Source: Halobaculum saliterrae (GTDB lineage: Archaea > Halobacteriota > Halobacteria > Halobacteriales > Haloferacaceae). From it: a DNA stretch of 64,000 bases. This document shows positions 10,557 to 46,739 of this stretch, one piece after another. Made by a program: the position numbers and the translations under genes. Every line of letters starts with the position of its first letter. Position 1 is the first letter of the stretch. The DNA lies in NCBI RefSeq assembly GCF_009831625.1, contig NZ_WUUS01000001.1:310301-374300 (forward strand). The letters run 5' to 3'. The notes below the pieces were generated by a model. That model was not told the origin of the DNA, searched no databases, and was given only the letters and a program-made list of their open reading frames with translations.

Positions 10557-10599
10557 AGCCTAGGGCGGGATTTGAACCCGCGCTCTCGTCCTTACCAAG
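10557..10599. repeat. attL: left copy of the 43-bp direct repeat (tRNA-Thr 3' fragment)
   Basis: This copy is identical to 46668-46710. It consists of the 3' end of tRNA-Thr (acceptor strand, T arm and the anticodon-stem 3' side, read on the minus strand). The match breaks immediately after CCAAG, where the intact gene continues with GACGCG and this copy with ACGG. It is not a functional tRNA. Confidence 0.95.
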
Positions 10600-16263: not shown

Positions 16264-17496
16264 TCAGTCTTCCAAACTTTTCAGCTTCTCCAAAACACCA
16301 TTCTCCTCCAGTTCAGACAGACGCTCCAGTACTTCCTGCTTATCTTGTTTCTCCGCCTGCTTCTTGAGACTGAGAGGTCGCCCACATTTCCTGCATTGAC
16401 TGTGCTCATTCTGATTCTCGGTACCGCAGAACGAACATGAAATCGGTTTATCCTCCTCTGAGTCGGTTTCAAGCCCGTACTGATCTCGGATCGCCTGGTT
16501 CACATCGTCGTTGTTCAAGTGGACATAGACCTTGGCTCGGTCGCTTCCAGGGGTCCAGCCAGCAAACTTGTTCAACTGCTCATACCCCATGAATGTCGCT
16601 ACCTCTGTCAATCGGGTATGACGCAGGTTGTACGGACGACGCTTGGATTCAGGGATATCAGCCCGTTCACATGCTTTCTTGAAACGACGGAGGAAAGCAG
16701 CGTATTTCATCGGATCCGCGGCATCCGGTTCATAATTACAGTTGTCACTATGGGTTTGCGGAGTATCACCGCAGTTCCGGCAGGCTTGCTGTTCCAATTT
16801 TACCCATAGAGGAGCGTTCACATCCTCTATATCTCCGATCTCACCTCCCAACGGATGCAATGAAACCCATTCACGGAGAGCACGGCCAGACCGAACCAGT
16901 TGGTTTGTCCGATCAGGAGTACCTTTCAATCCTTCCAAGAAAATGAACTCGCCTTTCTCATTCACAGTGAAATCCCCTATGTTACGAGAAAGCAGTTCGC
17001 CAGGACGTGCTGCTGACTCGTACAGTACGTAGACCATTGCTCGGTCACGAGTGTTGTTAAAGCTGCTAAGCAGTCGTTTCAACTCCTCTTTCGTGAACAG
17101 GTCTTCCCGGGTAACAGAGGTGGGCTTACTGCTTTGATGGACTGAAAAGAATTGGACCTTGTCCGGGTGTTCTCCACTGTTTTCTACTTTGTACAGCTTC
17201 TTGATCGAGGCTCTGAACTTGTGCTTTGTAGGTTCAGCGTAGTCGCTTCGGTTGATATTAGCGACTAATTCCTTGAGTTCGGATTCGGAGGCACCACGGA
17301 TTTTGAAATCATACGGTGCGAATTTTTTCAAGGCGGTCTTCCAAGCATAGATAATCCGTCGTTGCTGGCTGTCTCCTATTCCTTCGGCAGCACAGTGGTT
17401 GATAAGGCTGTTTACGGCTTGGTAGTTTTCTTGGCCGACTTCGTCTTCCAGTTTTTGAAGTGATCTATTGATATCGATGTATTCTGTAGTAGTCAT
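16264..17496 (-). CDS. Tyrosine recombinase with C-terminal zinc ribbon (XerC/D-like)
   Basis: 410 residues. A SAM-like N-terminal DNA-binding domain (about 10-115) precedes the catalytic domain with ESAARPGELL (Arg I), YNLRHTRLTEVA (His-x-x-Arg), AGWTPGSDRAKVYVHL (Trp at the His/Trp position, then the nucleophile Tyr). A zinc ribbon (CSFCG...CRKCG) sits at about 357-377. This architecture is frequent in haloarchaeal elements. It lies deep inside the element, 29 kb from the att-proximal integrase, so it is probably a resolvase or an additional invertase rather than the integrase of this att pair. Confidence 0.86.
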   Translation of the reverse strand: MTTTEYIDINRSLQKLEDEVGQENYQAVNSLINHCAAEGIGDSQQRRIIYAWKTALKKFAPYDFKIRGASESELKELVANINRSDYAEPTKHKFRASIKKLYKVENSGEHPDKVQFFSVHQSSKPTSVTREDLFTKEELKRLLSSFNNTRDRAMVYVLYESAARPGELLSRNIGDFTVNEKGEFIFLEGLKGTPDRTNQLVRSGRALREWVSLHPLGGEIGDIEDVNAPLWVKLEQQACRNCGDTPQTHSDNCNYEPDAADPMKYAAFLRRFKKACERADIPESKRRPYNLRHTRLTEVATFMGYEQLNKFAGWTPGSDRAKVYVHLNNDDVNQAIRDQYGLETDSEEDKPISCSFCGTENQNEHSQCRKCGRPLSLKKQAEKQDKQEVLERLSELEENGVLEKLKSLED

Positions 17497-18091: not shown

Positions 18092-20077
18092 CTACAGCTG
18101 TGGAAGCTGCTCGCTGTTGAACTCCCGAAACAGTCGAAACACGATTCTATCATCTTCTAAATTGTTCTCAGCTAATCTCTGCCGTAAACCTTCCCGAACT
18201 TCCTTGTTACGGCAGGCGATCCAGACGCTGTCGAAACGGTCCAAGTGTTCTTCAACATGTTTGATTTCTCGGGGATTATCTCCCATCGCGACCTCAACCA
18301 CTAACTCCGTGTTTCCCATGTTGACGTAGACATCCGCATCGAATTTCTCGAAGAACGCAGACCAGCCCATTTCTTCAAACAAATCTTTGATCCGATGCTG
18401 CCAAAACCGGTGTACAACTCCGCCACGACCCCTTCGCTTCACCTCCAACCCCAGTTCACTTTCTGCGTAGTTACGGCCTTTCTCAGTCAACTGCAACAGC
18501 TTCCGCTTACCCTTCTGAGTGTGGACCTTTCTCTCAACTACAACACCGTTGTCGACAAGCATATTCTTCACCTTGTTACCCTTGTAACTACTCGGAAAAT
18601 CACCATATCGGTCGGTCAAGCCACGGAATGGATTCTCCACTACGTCCTTGAGGAACCGGTCTGCATCACCACTCAAATCTAGTTCTCCTTGTGGGTCCTC
18701 AACGATCTCCGGATTCTCGACCTCATCTGAACGACCGGGAGCAACTAGTGATTTGAAATCCGGTGTCAAGCTCCGAGGTTCATATGAAAGACTGGTCCAG
18801 TTATCAGCTTGTCTTCGCTCCAAGTCTTCATCCGAAACCTGCTTCTCCAAACTGTAATCATCCAAACTCACCGGTACCGGACTACCGTTACCAACCTGGA
18901 CAACCGCTTCACCAGTACCCAATCCCTGGGCAAACTCTCGCTGCCGCTCAGACAGGTTCAAACTGTCTGCAACCTCGTCAAACTGCCGCCGATCATCCAT
19001 TGGCAGCAGGAACTTGGTGTACGTGTTAGCCTTGATAGAATCCGTCAACTTACCAGGCTCCTGATCGCCCACAACCAATCCTTCACCGAACTCCCGCATC
19101 TTCGCCGTCAACTCATCAATTTCAGGGATGCCAGAAGCACTCTGCCTCTCCTTGTAAACCGAGAAGACTTGTTTCCCTTCATCCAAGAAGAACAGATGCC
19201 GCAAACCACTGTCTCGCTGGTTACTGGCTAACCTGTATTCAAACACGTAGGCAAACAAGACTTCCATCAAGAAATTCTGGACATCACGACTCAGTCCGTC
19301 AAACTCAAACACCACATCCCGCTTCAACAACTCCTCCAAGTCGTAGCCCTGACTACAATCAAAAACCGTTCCCGCAGTAAGAGTCATCGCCTCCAAACGA
19401 TTCAAAACCGTATCACGATAATTCGACGACTTCCGCATATAACTCATAGAATCAGCCTCAATCAAAGCCTGGAGCTCAAACAAACTCGGGTAAGGCGGAG
19501 AAACACACTCGAATAGATTGTACGCCTGGTAGAGCTTGATCACCGACTTCAGCAAATAATTCTTAGAACCACTCAACAACGCCGTAGAGTGGCTAAACAT
19601 TTCACTGAATACCTGAGCCCATCTTCTCGGAGGTACTCCTTCAGGCGGCCGTAACGGATTCAAACGCAGCTTAGACCACGGCAACACCAACAACTCATGG
19701 TTCTGTGAGAGATGGCGGTAGTCCTGCTTTAGATCAAAGAACCAGACCGGCACACCCACCTCTCGATACAGATTATAGAACAACGTCGTCTTCCCCGAAC
19801 CACTCTGACCCACCGCCAACAAATGCTGATTCAAACCCTCTTCATCTAAGCGAACCGGGAAGCCGCTATAGCTTCGTCCCACCTCCACACCTCCGGATAA
19901 CATCTCAGAGCTGCTGAACGGGAACTCTTGATTCCGCAGATCCTGAACCGCCGCTAACCGTCCAGCACAGTTCAACAAGAACTCATTATCCGAAGCAACA
20001 GCTGCCTCCACCAAATCACGTAGCTCACCGTCAACACGATTCTCCTCCAACAAACGCAGCAAAGACTCCTTCCTCAC
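18092..20077 (-). CDS. HerA/VirD4-type ATPase with C-terminal nuclease-like domain
   Basis: 661 residues, GTG start. The RecA-like core has Walker A GQSGSGKTT (about residues 90-98), WFFDLKQDYRHL and Walker B HLFFLDEGKQVF (about 295). After a winged-helix-like linker (VKNMLVDNGVVVERKVHTQ), the last 110 residues show DADVYVNMGNTELVVEVAMG, compatible with a PD-(D/E)xK nuclease fold. Similar proteins occur in archaeal plasmids as DNA translocases. It follows hsdR by 53 bp on the same strand and could belong to the restriction operon or act in conjugation. The exact role is not determinable here. Confidence 0.72.
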   Translation of the reverse strand: MRKESLLRLLEENRVDGELRDLVEAAVASDNEFLLNCAGRLAAVQDLRNQEFPFSSSEMLSGGVEVGRSYSGFPVRLDEEGLNQHLLAVGQSGSGKTTLFYNLYREVGVPVWFFDLKQDYRHLSQNHELLVLPWSKLRLNPLRPPEGVPPRRWAQVFSEMFSHSTALLSGSKNYLLKSVIKLYQAYNLFECVSPPYPSLFELQALIEADSMSYMRKSSNYRDTVLNRLEAMTLTAGTVFDCSQGYDLEELLKRDVVFEFDGLSRDVQNFLMEVLFAYVFEYRLASNQRDSGLRHLFFLDEGKQVFSVYKERQSASGIPEIDELTAKMREFGEGLVVGDQEPGKLTDSIKANTYTKFLLPMDDRRQFDEVADSLNLSERQREFAQGLGTGEAVVQVGNGSPVPVSLDDYSLEKQVSDEDLERRQADNWTSLSYEPRSLTPDFKSLVAPGRSDEVENPEIVEDPQGELDLSGDADRFLKDVVENPFRGLTDRYGDFPSSYKGNKVKNMLVDNGVVVERKVHTQKGKRKLLQLTEKGRNYAESELGLEVKRRGRGGVVHRFWQHRIKDLFEEMGWSAFFEKFDADVYVNMGNTELVVEVAMGDNPREIKHVEEHLDRFDSVWIACRNKEVREGLRQRLAENNLEDDRIVFRLFREFNSEQLPQL

Positions 20078-20130: not shown

Positions 20131-23121
20131 CTATGCCGCAGCCCCGCCATAGAAAGCCTCAGCCTGCGAAACAATCGGATCAACCAAGCCATCATACTTG
20201 TACAAACTCAAACCATTACTTCGCAGAACAGCCTTAACCTCCGTCTTGATCTCAGCACGGATCTTCTCACGATTCGTCCAGTCCACCTCAGTACTATCCT
20301 TCAAATTCTGCTTCAACTCACGAGCAATAGTCTTCAACGTCTCCTCATCGATTTCAGAATCCGTATTCGAGGAGATAGCCGAGTAGAAAGCATACTCCTC
20401 GTCACTCAAGCCAAGCTCATCCTGCTGATCATCCGTCTCCTGAATCCTATCAGCGTAATCCCGCAACTCATCGATAACTTGCTGCGTTGAGATGAAGCCC
20501 TCGTTGTATTCGTTAATCGTCTCCTCCAGTTCCTCCTCGAAGGATTCGTACTTCGCTAAGTTCGTCTGCTTCCGGGTCGTGATCTCATTTTCCAATAGCT
20601 GCCGAAGCATCTTCACCTGCAAGTTCTCGAATTCGACCTCCTCGACATCCTCCAAGAACTCATCGCTCAACACCGGCTTCTCCTTCTCCCACTTGTCAAA
20701 GCCAGTTACCTCTATCAAATCCTCAATACCGACGCCCTCAGCAACAAGCTCCTTCATGGCCGAATCCACGTCCTCGACCTCGTCCGGATTACCGGAGTTA
20801 TCGATACTGTTGATAGCACCTAAGACAGCTTCAAAGAACGCTACGTCTGCCCGGATATCACTTGCCGCGGAATGAGGCGAAACCAATGAATGAGCCTTCT
20901 TTAACCCCTTCATCGATTCACGGAACTTATCCTCACGCTCCTCAGTAACCAATACCTCGTTCTGTGCCTTGTACAGCAATCGCTGGCGATCCGTCTTGTT
21001 CAGCTGCGGCCAATCATTGTATTCGATAGCAGCGAAGAAGTCGGCAACCTCCTGATGCTTCTCCCGCATCACTTGGACCGCTTCCTCAATATCCAGCATC
21101 GCATCATTCCGGACCTCAGACGTGTACTTATCCAACGCCTGCTTCAACCGCTCACTGATACCGATATAATCAACGATCAAACCACCAGGCTTGTCCTTGT
21201 ACACCCGGTTAACCCGGCCGATAGCCTGCAACAGGTTGTGGTTCTTCATCGGCTTATCGACGTACAACGTGTGCAGATGCGGGGCGTCAAACCCGGTCAA
21301 CCACTTATCACAGACAACAGCGATCTCGAACGGGTCATCAGGATCTTTGAAACGCCGCTTCAACTCATCATTCGAAATCGGGTTGTCGATATAGTCTTCT
21401 GCACCGGACATGACTACCCGTGTCTCAGGTGCATCCGAGTTCTCCCTGATCTTCTCAGCCAAGTTCATCGCTGCCTGACGACTGATAGCAACCACCATCG
21501 CCTTCCCCTCGATCTCACGATTATTGTAGTGGTCTACAATGTCGTCAGCAATCATCTCAGTCCGCTCCTCACTGTTCTCAATAACCCGGCGGAGCTGAGT
21601 CCACTTCTTCTTCATCTCATTCTTCAACTCGTCCGACTTCGACTCCATCAACTCGTTAAACCGGTCCTCTATCTCCGGATCATTAACCTGGAGCTTCGCC
21701 AAACGACTCTCATAATAAATCGGGACTGTGGAACCATCCTTCTCAGATTCCTTAATCGTGTACTGGCTGATATAACCGCCAAACGTGTTCGTTGTCGACC
21801 GATCCTCCTTCTCAATCGGAGTAGCAGTAAAGCCGAGATGTGACGCGTTCGGCAGCCCGTCACGGACATTCGTCGCTAAACTCTTATACTGAGTTCGGTG
21901 GGCCTCGTCCGCAACCACGATCACATTCTCACGGTCGTTGACCTCCGGATACTGTACTTCATCATCCGTGGTCTGGAACTTCTGAATCGTCGCGAAAATG
22001 ATGCCGCCAGCCTCCCGATCTAACCGGTCACGAAGCTGAACCCGGTTATCACTGTCTGCCCATTCAGCATCCAAACCGTGCTTCCTGAACTCCTTATACA
22101 GCTGATCATCCAAATCATTCCTATCCGTGAGATAGACCAGCGTCGGGTTCTCCATCTCGCTTACACGCCGAATCTTCTTCGCATAGAACACCATAGAGAG
22201 CGATTTCCCAGACCCCTGAGTATGCCACACCAAGCCGATACGATCCTCATCAGGATTCGGAACTACCTGCCGACTGCTCTCCACCGCGCTATTCACTGCA
22301 TAGAACTGGTGGTACGCAGCCAGCTTCTTACCCAGCTTTCCATCCTCATCAGCATACAATACAAAATTCTGGATAAGATCGAGAACCCGTGACTTATCGA
22401 ACGCACCACGGATCAACACCTCAGACGGAGGCAAATCCCCGGTAGCATCCTCTTCCTCATCGATATACCGCCACGGAGAGAACCACTCCCAGCCAGCAGA
22501 CAGACAACCCAGCTTCGCATTATTCATATCTAAAATCCCGATCAACTCATTATAGTGAAACAGGTCCGGAATATCGTTCACATACCGGTCTGTGACCTGC
22601 TTGTACGCATTACCCATCGACGCCTGCGGATTCGTCGGATCCTTCAACTCCAAGACACCCAGAGGTAGCCCGTTGACAAACACGATGATATCCGGCCGGC
22701 GCTGCGGACCCTCGCCAATCTGAATAACCACCTGATTAGAGACCAGAAAATCGTTCGCCTCAGGGTTCTCAAAGTCAATTACGTCTACAAAATCACCGCG
22801 AGTCTCACCGTTGACCTCGTACTCAACCTGAATCCCGTTAACCAGTTTCTCGTGGAAATTCTTGTTATTCTTTAGCAGTTTCGTCGAGTTGAAACCGAGA
22901 AGCTGAGAAATCGCATCCTCGATCGCCTCATCCGGCATAGACGGATTAAACTCCTGAAGCTTCCGCTCAAGACGGCCACGCAGAACTACGTCTGAAAGCG
23001 ACTGCCGCTCAGGATCATCACTATTCGGCCCCAATTCAGAACCGTGTTTGTAGTCATATCCAATATCCTGGAAAGCCTGTAGGGCCGGCTTCTCCGCCAA
23101 CTCCATCTCATTCAAAGACAT
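20131..23121 (-). CDS. hsdR: Type I restriction endonuclease subunit R
   Basis: 996 residues. The N-terminal nuclease region has RRPDIIVFVNGLPLGVLELK (about 142-161; PD...ExK). The SF2 translocase follows with HTQGSGKS (Walker A, about 290), VVADEAHRTQ (DEAH, about 405), FTATP, and motif VI AIGRVNR. The C-terminal 250 residues are helical and contact the methylase. It is the last gene of hsdM-hsdS-hsdR. HsdR uses ATP to pull DNA through the complex and cuts unmethylated DNA far from the recognition site. All motifs look intact. Confidence 0.94.
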   Translation of the reverse strand: MSLNEMELAEKPALQAFQDIGYDYKHGSELGPNSDDPERQSLSDVVLRGRLERKLQEFNPSMPDEAIEDAISQLLGFNSTKLLKNNKNFHEKLVNGIQVEYEVNGETRGDFVDVIDFENPEANDFLVSNQVVIQIGEGPQRRPDIIVFVNGLPLGVLELKDPTNPQASMGNAYKQVTDRYVNDIPDLFHYNELIGILDMNNAKLGCLSAGWEWFSPWRYIDEEEDATGDLPPSEVLIRGAFDKSRVLDLIQNFVLYADEDGKLGKKLAAYHQFYAVNSAVESSRQVVPNPDEDRIGLVWHTQGSGKSLSMVFYAKKIRRVSEMENPTLVYLTDRNDLDDQLYKEFRKHGLDAEWADSDNRVQLRDRLDREAGGIIFATIQKFQTTDDEVQYPEVNDRENVIVVADEAHRTQYKSLATNVRDGLPNASHLGFTATPIEKEDRSTTNTFGGYISQYTIKESEKDGSTVPIYYESRLAKLQVNDPEIEDRFNELMESKSDELKNEMKKKWTQLRRVIENSEERTEMIADDIVDHYNNREIEGKAMVVAISRQAAMNLAEKIRENSDAPETRVVMSGAEDYIDNPISNDELKRRFKDPDDPFEIAVVCDKWLTGFDAPHLHTLYVDKPMKNHNLLQAIGRVNRVYKDKPGGLIVDYIGISERLKQALDKYTSEVRNDAMLDIEEAVQVMREKHQEVADFFAAIEYNDWPQLNKTDRQRLLYKAQNEVLVTEEREDKFRESMKGLKKAHSLVSPHSAASDIRADVAFFEAVLGAINSIDNSGNPDEVEDVDSAMKELVAEGVGIEDLIEVTGFDKWEKEKPVLSDEFLEDVEEVEFENLQVKMLRQLLENEITTRKQTNLAKYESFEEELEETINEYNEGFISTQQVIDELRDYADRIQETDDQQDELGLSDEEYAFYSAISSNTDSEIDEETLKTIARELKQNLKDSTEVDWTNREKIRAEIKTEVKAVLRSNGLSLYKYDGLVDPIVSQAEAFYGGAAA

Positions 23122-23127
23122 ACCACA

Positions 23128-24378
23128 TCAGACCTCACTATCAACCTCTAAATCATCCAAGTTAATGTCATTAACCCTGACCTCACCCGACATCAACTTC
23201 GGAAGCAAAGAATCCCTGAGTTCGGAAAGTTCTTGGTTTTCTTCTACGTTATCGTTGATCATTTCTTTCATCGAGGAAGTTAATGTATTGAATCGCTCAA
23301 TATCTTTCTTCGGCGGGAGTGCCACAGGGAAGTTCTGAATATCTGTTTTATTGATTGAGTTAAATGTTGTTCCTGATTTGTACTTTTCCCAATTTGGCTT
23401 ATTTGCTTTCAGCAAATGGTATAGATATTCGTTTTCAAACTCAGCCATTCGTAGAGCAGTAACCCCACGCCCTACAACGCATTTTTCACCTGCCCTATTT
23501 ACATCACCAACCGGTGCTCGGATACTGATTAATACATCATCTTCTTGAGCTACCTTCTTTTTTTTCGTACACCATCTCTCTACCTTGGGATATCTAAGTC
23601 CGAAATTTTTGCTACCTTGGAAAAACGGCAACCCTTCCCCCTCTTCATTGTAATGTTCAGATTTCGGTGAATTACCTAGTATGATCTCGGCAAATTCAGA
23701 TATGGTTTTTACTTCGAAACTCTCAGGAATCCGCCCTATATCAGAATTTTTGAAGTCATCATATGGAGAGAAGTCAACAAACCAATTCCTGAAGATAGTT
23801 TGTTCTATCTCTTCCAATACAGAATTTATTTCCCTATTTGTATTTATTTTCTTGTCTATATTTGTGAGAATAGTTGCGATCGTCTTCTGTTCTTCAATCG
23901 GAGGTATAGCAATAGTCTCCTCGTAGAATTCATCTCGATTTAAACCAGGAACGGCAGAACCGCTCTTCAGCCGATCAAGATCAAAATCTAAGAAATTATA
24001 ATAGAGATATCGGAGATCCACCTCAGATATCTTTAGAGAATCTGGATTAATATAGTAGGCAGTATCGATCACATTGAAATTAGTGTCGCTCCATTCAATC
24101 CCGAGATTCACTCCCTTTCTGCCAACAATAATTCCAGGAGCATCAACGTGATATTCTGAGTGCCATCCTGAACGACCATTTGAGCCAAAAACAGGATATG
24201 GCCCTTCTTCGCGTTCTTTTTTGGGTAAAGAGCTACCGTATTCTAATTCAAGCAATTCGCCGATCGGAGAGATTTTCCAGGAATTTGGCTTCTCTACACC
24301 CTGTCTTTGTAGGATGTACGGCTTGCTGAGGCCTTCTACTTTTTTTATTTCCGACAGAGTCCGCTGTTCGGAGTTCAA
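23128..24378 (-). CDS. hsdS: Type I restriction-modification specificity subunit S
   Basis: 416 residues. Two target-recognition domains (about 30-150 and 215-345) are each followed by a conserved helical spacer (PPIEEQKTIATILTNIDKKI at about 160; PPKKDIERFNTLTSSMKEMI at about 360). TRD1 starts WKISPIGELLELEYG, and TRD2 starts FEVKTISEFAEIILGN. It overlaps the hsdM stop by 4 nt and precedes hsdR by 6 nt. The central part is markedly more AT-rich than its flanking genes, as is common for exchanged recognition domains. Confidence 0.93.
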   Translation of the reverse strand: MNSEQRTLSEIKKVEGLSKPYILQRQGVEKPNSWKISPIGELLELEYGSSLPKKEREEGPYPVFGSNGRSGWHSEYHVDAPGIIVGRKGVNLGIEWSDTNFNVIDTAYYINPDSLKISEVDLRYLYYNFLDFDLDRLKSGSAVPGLNRDEFYEETIAIPPIEEQKTIATILTNIDKKINTNREINSVLEEIEQTIFRNWFVDFSPYDDFKNSDIGRIPESFEVKTISEFAEIILGNSPKSEHYNEEGEGLPFFQGSKNFGLRYPKVERWCTKKKKVAQEDDVLISIRAPVGDVNRAGEKCVVGRGVTALRMAEFENEYLYHLLKANKPNWEKYKSGTTFNSINKTDIQNFPVALPPKKDIERFNTLTSSMKEMINDNVEENQELSELRDSLLPKLMSGEVRVNDINLDDLEVDSEV

Positions 24379-25955
24379 AATCCCACCTCTTGAAGGCTTT
24401 TATCTATCTTCTTCTGCAATTCTTCTGATTTTTGGAAGTTCTCACGAAGGTCAGCAGCGAGTCTCTCCATTTTGTTTTGGAATATCTCTGTATCTTCACT
24501 ATCCGTTTCGACACCAACGTATCTGCTGGGTGTTACAATATATCTATTATCAGCTATTTCTTTTGTTTGTACTACTTTACAGAACCCGGTATCATCCTCA
24601 TAATTATTTGCCTGATCTTCTCCACGATATGCTCTTACGGTATTGGCTATCTTTTGTATATGATTCTTCTCCAACCGATTTTGGGTTCGGTTGACAGTTT
24701 CATAGAGATCTCTTGCATCAATAAACAGGGTCTCATTCTTTCTGTCACGATATTTATCTTCTCTCTTCCCTTTGCTGAGAATGAATATACAGGCCGGTAT
24801 ACTAGTTGTATAGAATAGCTCCTTCGGAAGGGCAATAACAGCATCCAGTAGGTCATCTTCTACAATACCTTTCCTAATTTCTCCTTCGTTATTTTGAGCA
24901 GACATTGCGCCGTTTGCCATGACTGTGGCTGCCATCCCGGTGTCGTTGAGATGGTGGATCATGTGCTGGATGAAGGCGTAGTTGGCATTGTTGGAGGGAG
25001 GCACCCCGTATTTGAATCGAGGATCGTCATCCGCTATCTGGTCCTTGCCCCATTCGCTCATGTTGAATGGAGGATTGGTGAGTATGTAGTCTGCTTCAAG
25101 TCCTTTGTGTTGGTCATTGAGGATGCTGTCTCCTTGTTTGATGTTACCGTCTAGACCGCGGAGGTAGAGGTTCATCTTGGAGATTTGGAGGGTGCTTTCC
25201 TTGATTTCTTGGCCGTAGATAGAGATCTTGTCGGTGTCTCCTCCGTGGCTTTCTATGAATTTCTGGCTCTGGACGAACATTCCGCCTGAGCCGCTGAATG
25301 GGTCGAAGATCCGGCCTTCGTAGGGCTCTAAGATTTCGACCATTAGTTCGACGACGCTTTTGGGAGTGTAGAATTCGCCTCCTTTCTGCCCGCCTTCCAT
25401 CGCGAACTGCTTAATGAAGTATTCGTAGATACGGCCGAAGACGTCCTCATCCTTGTCTCCGTTCCCTGCTTCCATGTTCAGATCTGCAAACAGATTGATC
25501 AGACCTTCTAAGGCGTCAGAAGAGTTGTCGGAGAGAGAAGATCGGGAGTATCCTTTCGGGAGAATTCCTTTGAGACGCGGATTTTCGTCTTCTATTGCAC
25601 GCATTGCGTCGTCGATCTTCTTCCCGATCTGAGGGTTAGTGGCGTTGTTGACGAAGTACTGCCAGCGTGCTTCTTCAGGGATGTAGAATACGTTTTCTCG
25701 GTTGTACTCGTCCTTGTCCGAGAGAATGTACTCCCGTTCTTTCTCGTCTTCGGTATAGTATCGAGAATCGGAGTCGCGGGTTTTCTCTTCGAGTTCCTGT
25801 CGTCGCGCCTCAAAGGAGTCAGACATACTCTTGAGGAAGAGCAGACCGAGCGCAAAGTCCTTGTATTCAGAGGGGTCGACAGGTCCTCTCAGTTTTTCTG
25901 CAGTTTCCCAGAGTTTCTTTTCAAGCTCACCGTTAGAATTCCCCGCAATAGCCAT
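24375..25955 (-). CDS. hsdM: Type I restriction-modification DNA methyltransferase subunit M
   Basis: 526 residues. An N-terminal helical HsdM domain (about 1-150) is followed by a gamma-class N6-adenine methylase with motif I DPFSGSGGMF (about 218-227) and motif IV NPPFNMSEW (about 294-302). It is the first gene of the operon; the hsdS start overlaps its stop by 4 nt. With HsdS it methylates the recognition site and protects the element's host. The start ATG at 25955 fits the family N-terminus. Confidence 0.95.
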   Translation of the reverse strand: MAIAGNSNGELEKKLWETAEKLRGPVDPSEYKDFALGLLFLKSMSDSFEARRQELEEKTRDSDSRYYTEDEKEREYILSDKDEYNRENVFYIPEEARWQYFVNNATNPQIGKKIDDAMRAIEDENPRLKGILPKGYSRSSLSDNSSDALEGLINLFADLNMEAGNGDKDEDVFGRIYEYFIKQFAMEGGQKGGEFYTPKSVVELMVEILEPYEGRIFDPFSGSGGMFVQSQKFIESHGGDTDKISIYGQEIKESTLQISKMNLYLRGLDGNIKQGDSILNDQHKGLEADYILTNPPFNMSEWGKDQIADDDPRFKYGVPPSNNANYAFIQHMIHHLNDTGMAATVMANGAMSAQNNEGEIRKGIVEDDLLDAVIALPKELFYTTSIPACIFILSKGKREDKYRDRKNETLFIDARDLYETVNRTQNRLEKNHIQKIANTVRAYRGEDQANNYEDDTGFCKVVQTKEIADNRYIVTPSRYVGVETDSEDTEIFQNKMERLAADLRENFQKSEELQKKIDKSLQEVGF

Positions 25956-26018
25956 GCACAGTAGTGCTAAGGAAACACTGATAATGGTTGTGTTGAACCA
26001 GAGGCCACCGACAACGAA

Positions 26019-26555
26019 CTAACCTATCTGCAGAATCTGAGCTTGGAGATGTGATTCAGACTTTTTCGCTTCTTCCCTGCTTATTGTACCGCTAATAATT
26101 GATTTGCCGCTTGCAAATATGAGCATCACTGTTCCGAGTTCCGGTGGTCGATAAATGACGCCAGGAAACTGCTCAGGTTCATACTCAACGTTCTCAAGGC
26201 CTAAATGGATCGCTAAAGTTTCTAATTGGATCTCAGTTCCGAAGTCCGCGAGATAGACAGCGTTGTTCTGCCTGAACGGCACTTCATCAAACTCTACACC
26301 GATCTCTTGTAGAGCATCTAGTAGGTCTTCCTTGGCTTCAAACAAAGCTTCACGACTTTCTGTCCCTCTAATTTGGAAACTTCCCGTACGATATAGAGTG
26401 AATGCCGGACCTCCCTCTTCTAAACGTATCGTAACCGTCGAGTCGCCGTGAGTATTGGCCTCTATATCGAACTCAGCAGAGAGAGCCTCAATTATCTCTG
26501 ATAGCTCTATTTCCCTACCAAGTTCTCCACTACCCATCGTACTCACTACATGCAT
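26019..26555 (-). CDS. Diverged TATA-box-binding protein paralogue
   Basis: 178 residues in two TBP half-repeats. The second is clear: EYEPEQFPGVIYRPPELGTVMLIFASGKSI then SGTISREEA. The first is strongly diverged (GPAFTLYRTGSFQIRGTESREA), with phenylalanines and the RPP/LxFxSGK signature partly lost. The start at 26555 preserves the VVST...GRELELSE-type first strand. Haloarchaea use multiple TBPs, and an element-borne copy could direct transcription of element promoters. It follows the restriction operon upstream and has no adjacent TFB gene. Confidence 0.82.
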   Translation of the reverse strand: MHVVSTMGSGELGREIELSEIIEALSAEFDIEANTHGDSTVTIRLEEGGPAFTLYRTGSFQIRGTESREALFEAKEDLLDALQEIGVEFDEVPFRQNNAVYLADFGTEIQLETLAIHLGLENVEYEPEQFPGVIYRPPELGTVMLIFASGKSIISGTISREEAKKSESHLQAQILQIG

Positions 26556-26629
26556 CCAGGTTACTTCTTCAGAGAGGACCGCTCCTCTTTATTCCACTCG
26601 TTTTCAGCCCCTTCTGTTTTCTCGCTATA

Positions 26630-26758
26630 TTACCAGTCTGACAACCCGAACTGTTCGGTCAAGACCTCGATTGCCTCCTCGACTTTCTTAGATTTCCGCA
26701 GCTCCGGACCGGTGTACTGTTCTTTCCAATATTGCAGATCAAACCAATTCTCGTTACC
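26630..26758 (-). pseudogene. Remnant coding fragment downstream of the methyltransferase
   Basis: An open frame without ATG, GTG or TTG start reads GNENWFDLQYWKEQY... and ends VEEAIEVLTEQFGLSDW before TAA. The ending closely matches the C-terminus of the 142-aa protein at 27466 (IEDAVEVLTSQSGIQDF, then stop). It overlaps the methyltransferase stop by a few bases in another frame. It looks like the tail of a duplicated gene truncated when the methyltransferase was inserted. Confidence 0.5.
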
Positions 26759-27446
26759 AGTCCTGCTGTAGGGAGCGTTGGTTGAGTCTTGTCCGTGCTG
26801 TTTCGACGTACTCGTGTTTTTGTTCTATTCCAAGGTATTGTCTTCCGAGCTGCTGAGCTACCACACAAACCGTGCCGGAGCCGGCGAACGGATCAACGAC
26901 CAGGTCTTCTGGCTTGGTCCACCACTTGATTAGTGTGGAGATGACTTCTTCTGGTTTCTGTGTCGGATGATCGGTGTTGGGTCCACGGTTCTGTATTGAG
27001 GAGTGGATTACGTTGTGGTGTTGTCCGCGTTGGTCCTGGAAGCCGTGTCCTTTGCCTTCGTTGACAGTGGCTATGATGATTTCTTCGACTGCTTCCTGCC
27101 ATTTCACGCCGTAGAGTTGAGGTACAGGGTTGGTTTTGTGCCAGTATGCTTTCTGCCGGAATTCGAGCCCTGCCTGGGTGAGTGCGGCGAGTAGTTCGTG
27201 GGTTCTACGGTTGTTGTAGAAAGTGATCAGGGTGCCGTTGTCGTTCAGTATCCGGGCGATTTCCGGTACCCAGTCATTCGGTGTGATCTGGTTGTCGTCC
27301 CATTCGCCGAAGTCATGAGAGATACTGGATCGGCTTGGAAAATCGGCTTCGAAGTTTGAGGAGAGGTTGTACGGCGGATCAGTCAACACCAAATCCACCG
27401 ACCCAGTTTCTACCTGCTTCAAGATTTCTCGGCAGTCACCATGCAC
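26754..27446 (-). CDS. Orphan DNA methyltransferase (N4-cytosine/N6-adenine, beta-type order)
   Basis: 230 residues. Motif IV DPPYNLSSN lies near the N-terminus (about residue 23) and motif I DPFAGSGT near the C-terminus (about 196), the order of beta-class methylases. The sequence starts MHGDCREIL, as in small phage and plasmid enzymes. No matching restriction gene is adjacent (hsdRMS is a separate system). It could protect the element against host nucleases or regulate replication. Downstream lies a gene fragment in another frame. Confidence 0.87.
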   Translation of the reverse strand: MHGDCREILKQVETGSVDLVLTDPPYNLSSNFEADFPSRSSISHDFGEWDDNQITPNDWVPEIARILNDNGTLITFYNNRRTHELLAALTQAGLEFRQKAYWHKTNPVPQLYGVKWQEAVEEIIIATVNEGKGHGFQDQRGQHHNVIHSSIQNRGPNTDHPTQKPEEVISTLIKWWTKPEDLVVDPFAGSGTVCVVAQQLGRQYLGIEQKHEYVETARTRLNQRSLQQDW

Positions 27447-27465: not shown

Positions 27466-27894
27466 TCAGAAGTCTTGGATCCCGCTTTGACTGGTTAAGA
27501 CCTCCACAGCATCCTCGATTTTCTCGACACGGGCTTTGTACAAGCTGAAACCCTCGTACATCTCCTGAGTGTTTGAGTTGCTTCGTGTGTCCAGATAGTC
27601 TTCTGCCTCGGTTGTTGAACCGAAGAACGGGTCGGCCTCCTCACCGTTCACCTCCGTATGGTACAATGCGGCCCCCGTATCCGGATTCAACCAATAATAA
27701 ACCGTGTTCCGTCGGCCATCCGTATGCAGATTCGATTTCCCACCATCCAACACGACCTCCTCATCACCCTCTAATTCCTTCAAGGATTTTCTGTAATGGG
27801 CTTCTGGAAAGTAGTTCTCCAGTTTGAATCGGAGCATGCCGGAGAACGTGGTGCCTCCGGTCAAGTTCATCCAGTACGGCTTCTCCTCTTCCAC
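27466..27894 (-). CDS. Hypothetical protein (142 aa)
   Basis: Acidic globular protein with no recognised domain. It starts with GTG at 27894, supported by GGAGGAG 8 nt upstream. The reading frame remains open further upstream, to a TGA, but without start codons. It has a C-terminal helix VEKIEDAVEVLTSQSGIQDF that recurs as a fragment at 26630. It lies in a same-strand group with the 111-aa and DUF932 genes; the gap to the former is 35 bp. Confidence 0.6.
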   Translation of the reverse strand: MEEEKPYWMNLTGGTTFSGMLRFKLENYFPEAHYRKSLKELEGDEEVVLDGGKSNLHTDGRRNTVYYWLNPDTGAALYHTEVNGEEADPFFGSTTEAEDYLDTRSNSNTQEMYEGFSLYKARVEKIEDAVEVLTSQSGIQDF

Positions 27895-27929
27895 AAACCG
27901 CTTCTCCTCCAGTATTTCTTCAACAGATT

Positions 27930-28265
27930 CTATAATCCATCACCTCTCTCATCGTTTTCAAGCAAGGCGTTGAGCTCTGTCTCGTACAGCTGCGAAACCT
28001 GGTAGCCGCCGTCCGGAAACAACTCCCCATCCGGATCATCGTCGAACTCGTCGTCAACACGGTACGCTCCTGCCTGCTTCAACTGATCCTTAGTGAAGTA
28101 GCCGTACTCCCACTGATCGAAGGTATTCGGGCTTTTCACACGGCCAAAATACAGGTCGTCTTCGGTTTTGTCGTACGCCTCCCACTTCCAGTTAGGAAGG
28201 AACGCCGCCTCCCAAGCAGCTAACGGCTCCTCATCACTGTAATCATCTGCCACAACAGATTCCAC
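27930..28265 (-). CDS. Hypothetical protein (111 aa), in operon with DUF932 gene
   Basis: Very acidic, Trp/Tyr rich (AFLPNWKWEAYDKTEDDLYFG; FDQWEYGYFT). The GTG start lies 1 bp from the stop of the DUF932 gene, so the two are almost certainly cotranscribed. No catalytic motif or membrane segment is visible. Its size and charge resemble single-strand-DNA mimics or plasmid partner proteins, but this is speculation. Confidence 0.6.
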   Translation of the reverse strand: MESVVADDYSDEEPLAAWEAAFLPNWKWEAYDKTEDDLYFGRVKSPNTFDQWEYGYFTKDQLKQAGAYRVDDEFDDDPDGELFPDGGYQVSQLYETELNALLENDERGDGL

Positions 28266-28266
28266 C

Positions 28267-29136
28267 TTATGCGCCGAGGCCGTGCAGCCCGCGTAGCTCT
28301 CTCAAGGTTTCAACTTCGCCATCCCAGTACGGTTCCGCGCCACCTCGTTCAATCAACTGGCGGCTTCGAGACTCAACCGCAACCCGGCCAACCTGCTCAG
28401 GGTCAGGGATACTGTTCGAACCATTCTCCAACAGTTGAGCAGCCGATTCAAACCCGTCAGCCAACCGGTGCCGCGAAACACTGTCATCCGTGTAATGGGT
28501 TAGTACACGAGTTGCAGCATTGTACGTCTCCCAAAGCGACGGACTATCCGGATCATCTACCTCCTCATACAAACCGTTCAACAAGTCAGGAACCGGGTTA
28601 TCCAAGAACCGGCCGACACCAGACTCCAGTAAGACCAATAGGGCCTCCTCCTGGTTCATGAACTCCCTGTTCTGAGCCTGAGCTAACCGGTGCTCAACTT
28701 CAGCGGGGCTCTCAGCTACAGCATCAACCGCGTTATACGCCAATCCGGGATCGAACGGATCGCCGTGAGTCTGCTCAAAACCTAGTTCAGATACAAACGC
28801 GGTCATACCGTTACTGCAGACCTCACGTTCCGCACCGACATCATACTTCAAACCGTGGAAACCACTGTGTCCGCTTCTAACCTGTAAACCTAGTTTGATC
28901 GGGTCATCTTGGTCTGCGTAAACCGTTGTCCCGTCGAAATCGATGTCAGCTATCATCTTATGCGCGGTCGGGGAAACAGAGACACTGCCGCTCGGAGAGA
29001 TACCGTGGCGATCAACCGCATCACCAACCGTCTCCAAGACATCCCCGTACTGGATAACGTTGTAGAAGTCATCGTTACTGGACACTACACCTGTGGTCCG
29101 ACCATCATCCGTCCACAAACTATCCCTGTACGGCAC
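28267..29136 (-). CDS. DUF932 family protein (phage/plasmid-type)
   Basis: At least 289 residues. The core GLQVRSGHSGFHGLKYDV...REVCSNGMTAF matches the DUF932 signature (GL...NS/SGH...G and R..CSNG). DUF932 proteins are widespread on plasmids and phages with unproven function. The coordinates use the first standard start (GTG 29136). Protein-like sequence continues in frame upstream to 29325 (WFCKGDFEIKGEQYSF..., SRHDVYAHHTES...), so the real protein is probably about 55-60 residues longer with a non-standard start. Confidence 0.75.
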   Translation of the reverse strand: MPYRDSLWTDDGRTTGVVSSNDDFYNVIQYGDVLETVGDAVDRHGISPSGSVSVSPTAHKMIADIDFDGTTVYADQDDPIKLGLQVRSGHSGFHGLKYDVGAEREVCSNGMTAFVSELGFEQTHGDPFDPGLAYNAVDAVAESPAEVEHRLAQAQNREFMNQEEALLVLLESGVGRFLDNPVPDLLNGLYEEVDDPDSPSLWETYNAATRVLTHYTDDSVSRHRLADGFESAAQLLENGSNSIPDPEQVGRVAVESRSRQLIERGGAEPYWDGEVETLRELRGLHGLGA

Positions 29137-32276: not shown

Positions 32277-32286
32277 ATATATAATA
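32277..32286 (+). promoter_or_regulatory. Promoter (TATA box) of the conjugation operon
   Basis: ATATATAATA is centred near 32281. The expected transcription start (about 32307) gives a leader of about 18 nt to the first gene at 32325. The genes from 32325 to 39295 overlap or abut, so this is probably the main promoter of the secretion operon. Confidence 0.55.
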
Positions 32287-45346: not shown

Positions 45347-46471
45347 TTAGTCTATGTTGTTGACTGCGTCTTGTTGTCGGGTCGTACTACTGTGTTCGTA
45401 TTTTTCCGTGGTGCGTTTGGATTTGTGGCGGCATTGTTGGGCGGCGACTGCGAGTCCTTCTTGTTCGGCGATGTAGGTGGCTGTGCTGTGGCGGATGCTG
45501 TAGGGTGTGAGGTCTCGGTTTTCTAAGTCGAGTTCTGCTTCGGATGCGATTTTGCGGAAGACGTCTCTGAAGCTGTCTTTGTTGTACCTGTTTTCGTACA
45601 TGGTGAGCCAGAGTGCGTCTCGGCTGTCGTACTTCTCCCGCGTCTCCCTCTCGTCGAGCCAGCGTTTCAAGATCTGAGTGGTTTCTTCTTTGAGTGCGAC
45701 TATCCAGTTCTCCCGGTTCTTACTGGATTCTTCTCGTGGTATCCGTAGTACTCCGTTTTCGGTGTCGACCCAGTGAACATTACTGCGCTTAATCTCGATA
45801 GGACGTAGACCCGCATCGAGTGCGACATGGATCATCGAGGTGTATTTGAAGGAGTTGGCTTTCTGCCAGTCCTTCATCGTGACTTCTTCTTTCGGTTTCT
45901 GCAGCCGCTGAGAAAGATACGTCTTCCATTTGTCGCGTTCGCTGGGTGTTACACTGTTGTAGTGGGGTACACTTCCGTACTCCATGGATGCTTCCCTCAT
46001 TTTCCGCCGATCTTCTTTGGTTAGGTAGTCACGTGGAGTATACGTTGTACTGGGATCGCTGTACTCGATCTCCGGCTCCCATTCGACGTCCTTGTTCCGG
46101 GCTTCTCGTTTCCACTTGAACAAGGAGTATACGGCTTTCTGGTAGTGGTTTTTCGTAGATTCTTTCATCTCCTCGGTGGCGAGGTGACGCATCCAGGTAT
46201 CCGCGTCGTCCGTAGTCAGTTCCTGGGTGTACCGGCCTCGACGGTTCCAGATAAAGCGGTAGAACAGGTCTAAGCGGTTCATCCTGTTCTTTGTCGTTGA
46301 GTGGCTGTAGCCCGTGGCTTTGTCCGGGTTTTTGCCGAGGGCCAGCATCCATTCACAGAGTTCGCGTCGGTGCTCGCGGTAGGTAACTTCCTGTCTCGGG
46401 TTTAGATACTCGCGCGCGTCTTCGGAGACGAGGACGATCCCGTCTACTTTGTTGTCTTCACTGTGCGTCAT
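45347..46471 (-). CDS. Tyrosine integrase of the element
   Basis: About 374 residues from ATG 46471 (SD-like AGAGGTG 6 nt upstream). The SAM-like N-terminal domain (about 35-125) is followed by the catalytic domain with DAGLRPIEIK (Arg I), SIRHSTATYIA (Arg and the His-x-x-x region), QCRHKSKRTTEKYEH (His and nucleophile Tyr). It sits 190 bp from attR and is the obvious enzyme for tRNA-Thr integration. Its promoter has a strong TATA box and an inverted repeat over the TSS, suggesting autoregulation. Confidence 0.9.
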   Translation of the reverse strand: MTHSEDNKVDGIVLVSEDAREYLNPRQEVTYREHRRELCEWMLALGKNPDKATGYSHSTTKNRMNRLDLFYRFIWNRRGRYTQELTTDDADTWMRHLATEEMKESTKNHYQKAVYSLFKWKREARNKDVEWEPEIEYSDPSTTYTPRDYLTKEDRRKMREASMEYGSVPHYNSVTPSERDKWKTYLSQRLQKPKEEVTMKDWQKANSFKYTSMIHVALDAGLRPIEIKRSNVHWVDTENGVLRIPREESSKNRENWIVALKEETTQILKRWLDERETREKYDSRDALWLTMYENRYNKDSFRDVFRKIASEAELDLENRDLTPYSIRHSTATYIAEQEGLAVAAQQCRHKSKRTTEKYEHSSTTRQQDAVNNID

Positions 46472-46485
46472 TCTCGACACCTCTG

Positions 46486-46667: not shown

Positions 46668-46710
46668 AGCCTAGGGCGGGATTTGAACCCGCGCTCTCGT
46701 CCTTACCAAG
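46668..46710. repeat. attR: right copy of the 43-bp direct repeat
   Basis: Identical to 10557-10599. It forms the 3' part of the intact tRNA-Thr gene from the anticodon-stem 3' side to the discriminator base. The repeat begins at the discriminator, so integration regenerates the gene. Confidence 0.95.
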
Positions 46711-46739
46711 GACGCGCTTTACCGCTAAGCTACCCAGGC
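46668..46739 (-). tRNA. tRNA-Thr (GGT)
   Basis: 72 nt. The acceptor stem GCCTGGG pairs with CCTAGGC (one G-U). D arm AGCTTAGCGGTAAAGC; anticodon loop TTGGTAA with anticodon GGT; T arm GCGGG-TTCAAAT-CCCGC. The discriminator is T and CCA is not encoded. It is the integration target of the element and lies at its right border in functional form. Confidence 0.95.

Follow-up and report, generated by a model that had tools for sequence, protein, structure and literature searches.

The multiplicity of haloarchaeal TBPs is a long-standing question, and the TbpC-like forms among them had been suspected to be dead. These proteins, in which the N-terminal Phe pair is lost, were judged to be non-functional or highly specialised (Becker et al., 2014; PMC4230888), and tbpC was found to be dispensable in Halobacterium NRC-1 (PMC2121645). 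TBPs are also present in the bacterial TOTE and TALON conflict systems, as described in PMC12458937, which cites Aravind, Iyer et al. (2022). The TBP gene described here lies in a stretch of 64,000 nucleotides of the Halobaculum saliterrae genome (contig NZ_WUUS01000001.1), which is referred to as the window.

A divergent TBP gene precedes the genes of an intact Type I restriction-modification system

An initial annotation of the window had called the TBP gene element-borne, and this is borne out by two 43-bp direct repeats at a tRNA-Thr gene, which bound a 36.1-kb integrated segment. The GC content of this element is mostly 45-53%, compared to about 70% for the chromosome, and it carries tyrosine integrases together with VirB4- and VirD4-like genes. 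Within it, hsdM, hsdS and hsdR are all present and intact and represent a complete Type I restriction-modification operon (Pfam, PADLOC), with the TBP gene located 63 bp upstream. The features are listed below by their positions in the window.

10557-10599 (no strand): left copy of the 43-bp direct repeat (attachment site), from repeat comparison
18092-20077 (minus): HerA/FtsK-like ATPase (DUF87)
20131-23121 (minus): hsdR, Type I restriction subunit (HSDR_N, SWI2_SNF2, T1RH-like_C; PADLOC REase_I)
23128-24378 (minus): hsdS, Type I specificity subunit (Methylase_S 2.5e-36; PADLOC Specificity_I)
24375-25955 (minus): hsdM, Type I methyltransferase subunit (N6_Mtase 6e-106, HsdM_N; PADLOC MTase_I)
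25956-25997 (minus): conserved non-coding block, candidate promoter of hsdM, from a comparison of 13 hsdM loci
26019-26555 (minus): divergent (TbpC-like) TBP, 178 aa, repeat 1 altered and repeat 2 near-canonical
26588-26593 (minus): AATAAA, weak candidate for the TBP gene's own TATA element, of the ordinary kind, from an upstream comparison by eye
26754-27446 (minus): N4/N6 DNA methyltransferase (N6_N4_Mtase 3.5e-37)
27466-29136 (minus): three genes (unknown, unknown, DUF932), from tblastn of relatives
45347-46480 (minus): tyrosine integrase of the element (Phage_integrase 2e-21)
46668-46710: right repeat copy (43 bp), coinciding with the 3' end of tRNA-Thr (tRNA 46668-46739)

Several neighbours of the TBP gene recur in related loci. 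In some relatives (L126, L134) an N4/N6 methyltransferase gene likewise lies upstream of the TBP, the three genes at 27466-29136 are kept upstream of the TBP and restriction-modification unit in several relatives (tblastn), and the HerA/FtsK-like ATPase gene is kept downstream of hsdR in five. The ATPase bears a weak resemblance to the MADS defence protein Mad8. The element encodes a further tyrosine recombinase in its interior (16264-17496), which ends in a C-terminal zinc ribbon and is distinct from the integrase next to the tRNA. The host also has a second divergent TBP on another contig (G000:C14:14949-15470, L156), where roughly 15 bp separate it from the preceding gene, which encodes a large N6-type DNA methyltransferase.

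The TBP is intact and its first repeat is re-specialised

The ORF at 26019-26555 starts with an ATG, is uninterrupted and encodes 178 amino acids. It matches the TBP family (PF00352) in two stretches with an E-value of 6.6e-29 in Pfam, and solved archaeal TBPs match it at about 1e-26 (PDB sequences). The two tandem repeats with a saddle fold are present (Pfam, AF2, Foldseek); the AlphaFold model is confident along its whole length (mean pLDDT 92.8), and its top PDB matches in Foldseek are archaeal and eukaryotic TBPs with a TM-score of about 0.8. In a whole-genome search, repeat 2 scored 72.2 bits and repeat 1 30.7 bits, compared to about 100-106 bits per repeat for the two canonical TBPs of the host, so that repeat 1 is the divergent half, as the initial annotation had stated. 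An alignment with 19 archaeal TBPs showed that repeat 2 retains EYEPEQFPGVIYRP and LIFASGK, whereas in repeat 1 FPG is changed to DST, FRSGK to YRTGS and VVCTG to FQIRG. The positions S5, M7, D38, Y55, Q61 and R63 of the window TBP are those that we take to correspond to the yeast contacts N69, V71, F99, F116, V122 and T124. Mapping of the contact phenylalanines, which had been suggested earlier, found the intercalating pair complete in repeat 2 (F130/F147) and replaced by D38 and Y55 in repeat 1. A Phe pair in each repeat is needed for canonical DNA binding, not for Pfam membership, and repeat 1 lacks it. At residue level the TFB-contact stirrup of repeat 2 (EYEPEQFPG) is complete.

A recently decayed copy that had lost its contact residues, considered in the initial annotation, is rejected in view of low dN/dS in both repeats and of derived residues that are conserved across genera. 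Against its two nearest relatives, dN/dS of the window TBP is 0.05-0.08 in repeat 1 and 0.04 in repeat 2, values which are approximate as dS is near saturation, and Y55, Q61 and R63 are invariant among its closest kin (the core clade defined below). Together with the confident AlphaFold fold this shows that repeat 1 is re-specialised rather than decayed, and that the gene encodes a real, intact and specialised TBP.

Divergent TBPs form one clade that is linked to defence systems

In Halonotius, Halosimplex, Halobellus and Haloarcula, the TBPs closest to that of the window (85-66% identity) each precede hsdM. A profile made from ten hsdM-preceding TBPs was searched against 391 Halobacteria genomes and set 20 core TBPs (at least 228 bits) apart from the remaining matches, none of which exceeded 172 bits. 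For 19 core and 60 lower-scoring divergent TBPs (n = 79), the surrounding 20 kb or so were compared with 40 control regions, consisting of 20 canonical TBP loci and 20 same-contig stretches at a distance of 60 kb. Loci were picked by TBP similarity alone, disregarding neighbours, and defence clusters were first identified among the case loci and then counted across all groups. DNA methyltransferases formed the largest neighbour cluster and were found at 19/19 core loci and at 15/20 and 32/40 lower-scoring loci, compared to 0/20 canonical TBP regions and 1/20 same-contig regions. They adjoin 66 of the 79 divergent TBPs and 1 of the 40 controls (one-sided Fisher 6e-19, indicative since the loci are partly related). 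Any listed defence gene (restriction-modification, BREX, helicase-methylase) was present at 74/79 divergent loci versus 0/20 canonical and 1/20 same-contig controls.

The partners include several kinds of Type I restriction-modification system, BREX (PglX, PglZ, BrxB), SNF2 helicases with a methyltransferase and Eco57I-like methyltransferases; PADLOC describes the operon of strain NRC-1 as a BrxHII/DrmD-like helicase with a DrmMI-like methyltransferase. The orientation of the TBP gene to the defence genes varies among loci (upstream, convergent or divergent), and the TBPs of relatives stay with restriction-modification or other defence genes across differing element and plasmid backgrounds. 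Several defence loci (L127, L128, L129-L131, L136, L137, L139, L144) have two different divergent TBPs, which often flank the defence system, one on each side. In the open-access literature searched, this link between divergent haloarchaeal TBPs and defence systems was unreported. The PADLOC release searched contains no model matching the window TBP, and a divergent TBP can serve as a marker in searches for archaeal defence systems.

A tree of 129 TBPs places every one of the 103 divergent TBPs in a single group (SH-aLRT 100), and 97 of these are labelled with defence neighbours. Two types of hsdM gene are distinguished here, type A (13 genes, 70-100% identity to that of the window) and type B (62-66% identity), and the window TBP sits in a subclade of nine rows (support 100), all upstream of type-A hsdM, with a signature of its own (MGSGxLGRE, YRTGxxQIRG). 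The subclades correspond to kinds of defence system; their inner order is unsure, as the tree was made by a quick method and has some long branches. The NRC-1 protein (P0002) was left out of the tree, and its close relative from a Halorubrum lacusprofundi plasmid (L207) shares the large clade with the window TBP. Both N-terminal phenylalanines are lost in 96/103 divergent TBPs and both C-terminal ones retained in 99/103, the window TBP being included in either count. Tyr occupies the F116 position in 92/103, and the acidic TFB-contact residues E124/E126/E128 are almost invariant. The window TBP is thus almost certainly a member of a defence-linked haloarchaeal clade, and a large clade of divergent TBPs is now tied to antiviral systems. 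A viral origin of the core clade was considered and rejected, as an IMG/VR scan gave only relatives with 27-37% identity and three phage records had other TBPs (about 39%). The haloarchaeal tailed viruses MZ334505 (HRTV-9) and MZ334513 (HJTV-2) encode TBPs of about 39% identity.

It is very unlikely that the TBP is a passenger, a non-functional or near-neutral copy hitch-hiking in defence islands. TbpC was earlier suspected to be non-functional, was easily deleted and gave no detected transcript (PMC4230888; PMC2121645), and the gene has been lost at some loci (in G310 and G403, and the upstream copy in G199), but low dN/dS in both repeats, the tight adjacency to defence genes and the match between tree subclades and kinds of system all argue against this. 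On pNRC100, the TbpC-like gene (WP_010890481), which judging from its residues is probably tbpC, comes third in a methyltransferase-SNF2 helicase-TBP operon (L283:382-9438). The methyltransferase ORF of this operon appears to be split in two by ISH27-2, which may account for the missing phenotype of the tbpC deletion.

The association of divergent TBPs with many mechanistically different systems could also mean that they are direct immune components, as the TBPs of bacterial TOTE/TALON systems may be, for example by sensing the promoters of an invader or by marking them for a restriction or BREX complex. The TBP gene ends the methyltransferase-helicase-TBP operon with a 4-bp overlap, and bacterial TOTE and TALON systems contain TBPs (PMC12458937). 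Nevertheless, such a role is unlikely: Type I HsdRMS, BREX and similar systems are known to function without a TBP, the TFB-binding surface is retained although it would be superfluous for a mere DNA sensor, the variable gene orientation is that expected of a trans-acting regulator, and no fused effector domains were seen.

Conserved non-canonical boxes precede hsdM and other defence genes

Upstream of hsdM lies the box CAACACAACCATTATCAG (25978-25995, minus strand), of which TTATCAG begins 29 nt before the ATG of hsdM. In leaderless haloarchaeal mRNAs the TATA box is located around -28/-29. In the 13 type-A loci, conservation begins at -42 and extends up to the start codon (tcAaC.cAAcc.TTAaCAG.GTtTCc as consensus), with a mean pairwise identity of 0.64 at -42 to -21 compared to 0.26-0.30 further upstream, and an information content of 1.01 compared to 0.22 for a rotated-row null (maximum 0.32 in 2000). 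TTAWCAG starts at -28/-29 in 11/13 type-A loci and TTGAAG is found at -28 to -31 in 7/8 type-B loci, whereas the control promoter regions contain TTAWCAG in 0/177 and TTGAAG in 1/177 cases. Identity around TTGAAG is 0.63, a value to which the anchoring of the comparison on this box contributes. That the type-A block encodes the N-terminus of hsdM was considered and rejected, as 9/11 loci have no in-frame ATG/GTG/TTG and two have stops near the start.

Boxes are also seen by eye upstream of other partners: ATTGAAG in 3/4 BREX pglX genes and TTTTGATGG in one methyltransferase group. In the hsdM, pglX and methyltransferase boxes the 5' half is T-rich and the 3' half is unusual. As the N-terminal repeat of TBP overlies the 3' half of the box, the unusual half fits the altered repeat 1, and the two may be matched to each other. 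Upstream of the TBP gene itself, the AATAAA candidate is common to the Halonotius and Halosimplex orthologues (by eye), and A/T-type TATA candidates precede 9/14 TBP genes versus 1/20 hsdM genes, a pattern picked after inspection.

The hsdM box has a single perfect match in the whole genome (25978-25995) and was not found elsewhere within the element. A second genomic site, with one mismatch and near glycosyltransferase-like and kinase-like ORFs, was set aside as of no evident relevance. The initial annotation had proposed that the TBP could recognise unusual promoters of the element, and had named TATA boxes at 32277 and 46515 for a binding test; the stretches near these positions are A/T-rich and TATA-like in the ordinary way. 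Both a TBP and a candidate box do exist, but the box upstream of hsdM is the candidate target rather than these stretches, and the gene travels with the restriction-modification operon and not with the whole element. The TBP is carried by the element and might therefore serve promoters across it or redirect host transcription; this is highly improbable, because the TBPs of relatives stay with defence genes in differing element and plasmid backgrounds and the box is absent from the rest of the element. For the redirection of host transcription that the initial annotation had also raised, no support was obtained.

Selective retention of the TFB-contact face combined with loss of the N-terminal intercalating pair in 96/103 proteins would also suit a dominant-negative or shut-off factor, which would titrate TFB and lower transcription of the host or of a virus in an abortive response, or repress its own operon. 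We consider this quite improbable, since the DNA-facing residues of repeat 1 are re-conserved (Y55, Q61 and R63, invariant in the core clade) and not just lost, the C-terminal Phe pair is retained, and the conserved unusual boxes suggest activation at a site.

A strict rule linking each TBP subclade to one box was rejected, as boxes track the hsdM lineage instead, and TTGAAG occurs alongside two TBP subclades. Three genomes (G199, G310, G403) retain the type-A box without a TBP upstream of hsdM; G199 has another divergent TBP after hsdR, and in G310 and G403 other parts of the genome encode TBPs with a divergent-like score. Likewise, the second hsdM of G001 (type B) has a box and no adjacent TBP, with a TBP of divergent or similar score elsewhere. 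Since the box thus tracks the hsdM lineage, it may be bound by another factor. The conserved upstream element of helicase-methylase operons consists of a palindrome and a TATA-like sequence. Eight operons (L158, L207, L209, L212, L223, L224, L229, L241) open with an ORF of about 63 amino acids upstream of the methyltransferase gene, AbrB-like by eye and with no Pfam match, and the conserved palindromic element AGTCTAAGTAAAGACTATAT precedes this ORF.

A proposed dedicated TBP for the defence operon

We propose that the window TBP is a dedicated, defence-linked TBP and initiates transcription of the defence operon next to it, a reading to which we give an even chance. It is favoured because defence genes adjoin 74/79 divergent TBPs versus 1/40 controls, because the 103 divergent TBPs form one clade in which the TFB contacts and the C-terminal Phe pair are almost always retained, and because purifying selection acts on both repeats. 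Further arguments are that a conserved, non-coding and non-canonical box, rare in controls, lies at the TATA position, that the hsdM box has its only perfect match in the genome there, and that the sole type-B locus without a box is that of G280, a genome with canonical-scoring TBPs alone. Against it speak the box following the hsdM lineage rather than the TBP subclade, and the palindrome with TATA-like sequence upstream of helicase-methylase operons.

In the proposed mechanism, the host machinery would transcribe the TBP gene from an ordinary A/T-type promoter, and the product, with its stirrup retained, would recruit host TFB and RNA polymerase. Using its near-canonical repeat 2 together with the altered repeat 1, it would then read the non-canonical box (CAACNCAACNNTTAWCAG) that stands at the TATA position before hsdM, a promoter recognition that is about as likely as not. 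The hsdMSR operon would hence depend on a factor encoded alongside it. After transfer to a new host, this two-step order could delay and couple the expression of restriction, a function comparable to that of bacterial restriction-modification controller (C) proteins.

More generally, haloarchaeal defence systems of several kinds may use a private branch of basal transcription, in which a clade of TBP paralogues diversified alongside them and reads system-specific, non-canonical core promoters or takes part in the direct recognition of invaders, a view that could go either way. If true, archaeal defence loci carry portable core-promoter factors, the basal-factor counterpart of bacterial C proteins, and immunity is coupled to a general transcription factor.

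Comparison with known systems

With canonical archaeal TBPs (TbpE type; PDB 1ais, 1mp9) the window TBP shares the fold (TM about 0.8), repeat 2 and the TFB stirrup, but identity is about 24-38%, the DNA face of repeat 1 is replaced and the gene is mobile. The nearest precedent for a TBP encoded inside an antiviral or conflict locus is offered by TOTE/TALON, which are bacterial and have TPR-OB/CSD proteins, whereas the present locus belongs to an archaeon with a working TBP/TFB apparatus and has standard restriction-modification or BREX partners; no TPR or OB Pfam matches were found among the nine genes scanned around the window TBP. Like the TbpC-like TBPs (PMC4230888), the window TBP is haloarchaeal, has lost the N-terminal Phe pair and kept the C-terminal one, and is of a dispensable, plasmid- or element-borne kind. 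That study gives no genomic context or function, while the group described here is larger and is tied to defence systems and unusual promoter boxes. In its proposed role, the TBP resembles the C proteins, being a regulator next to restriction-modification genes that would act on a specific box in their promoter. The comparison concerns this role alone, as C proteins are small HTH repressor-like proteins and the window protein is a basal factor with a TBP fold (Pfam, AlphaFold).
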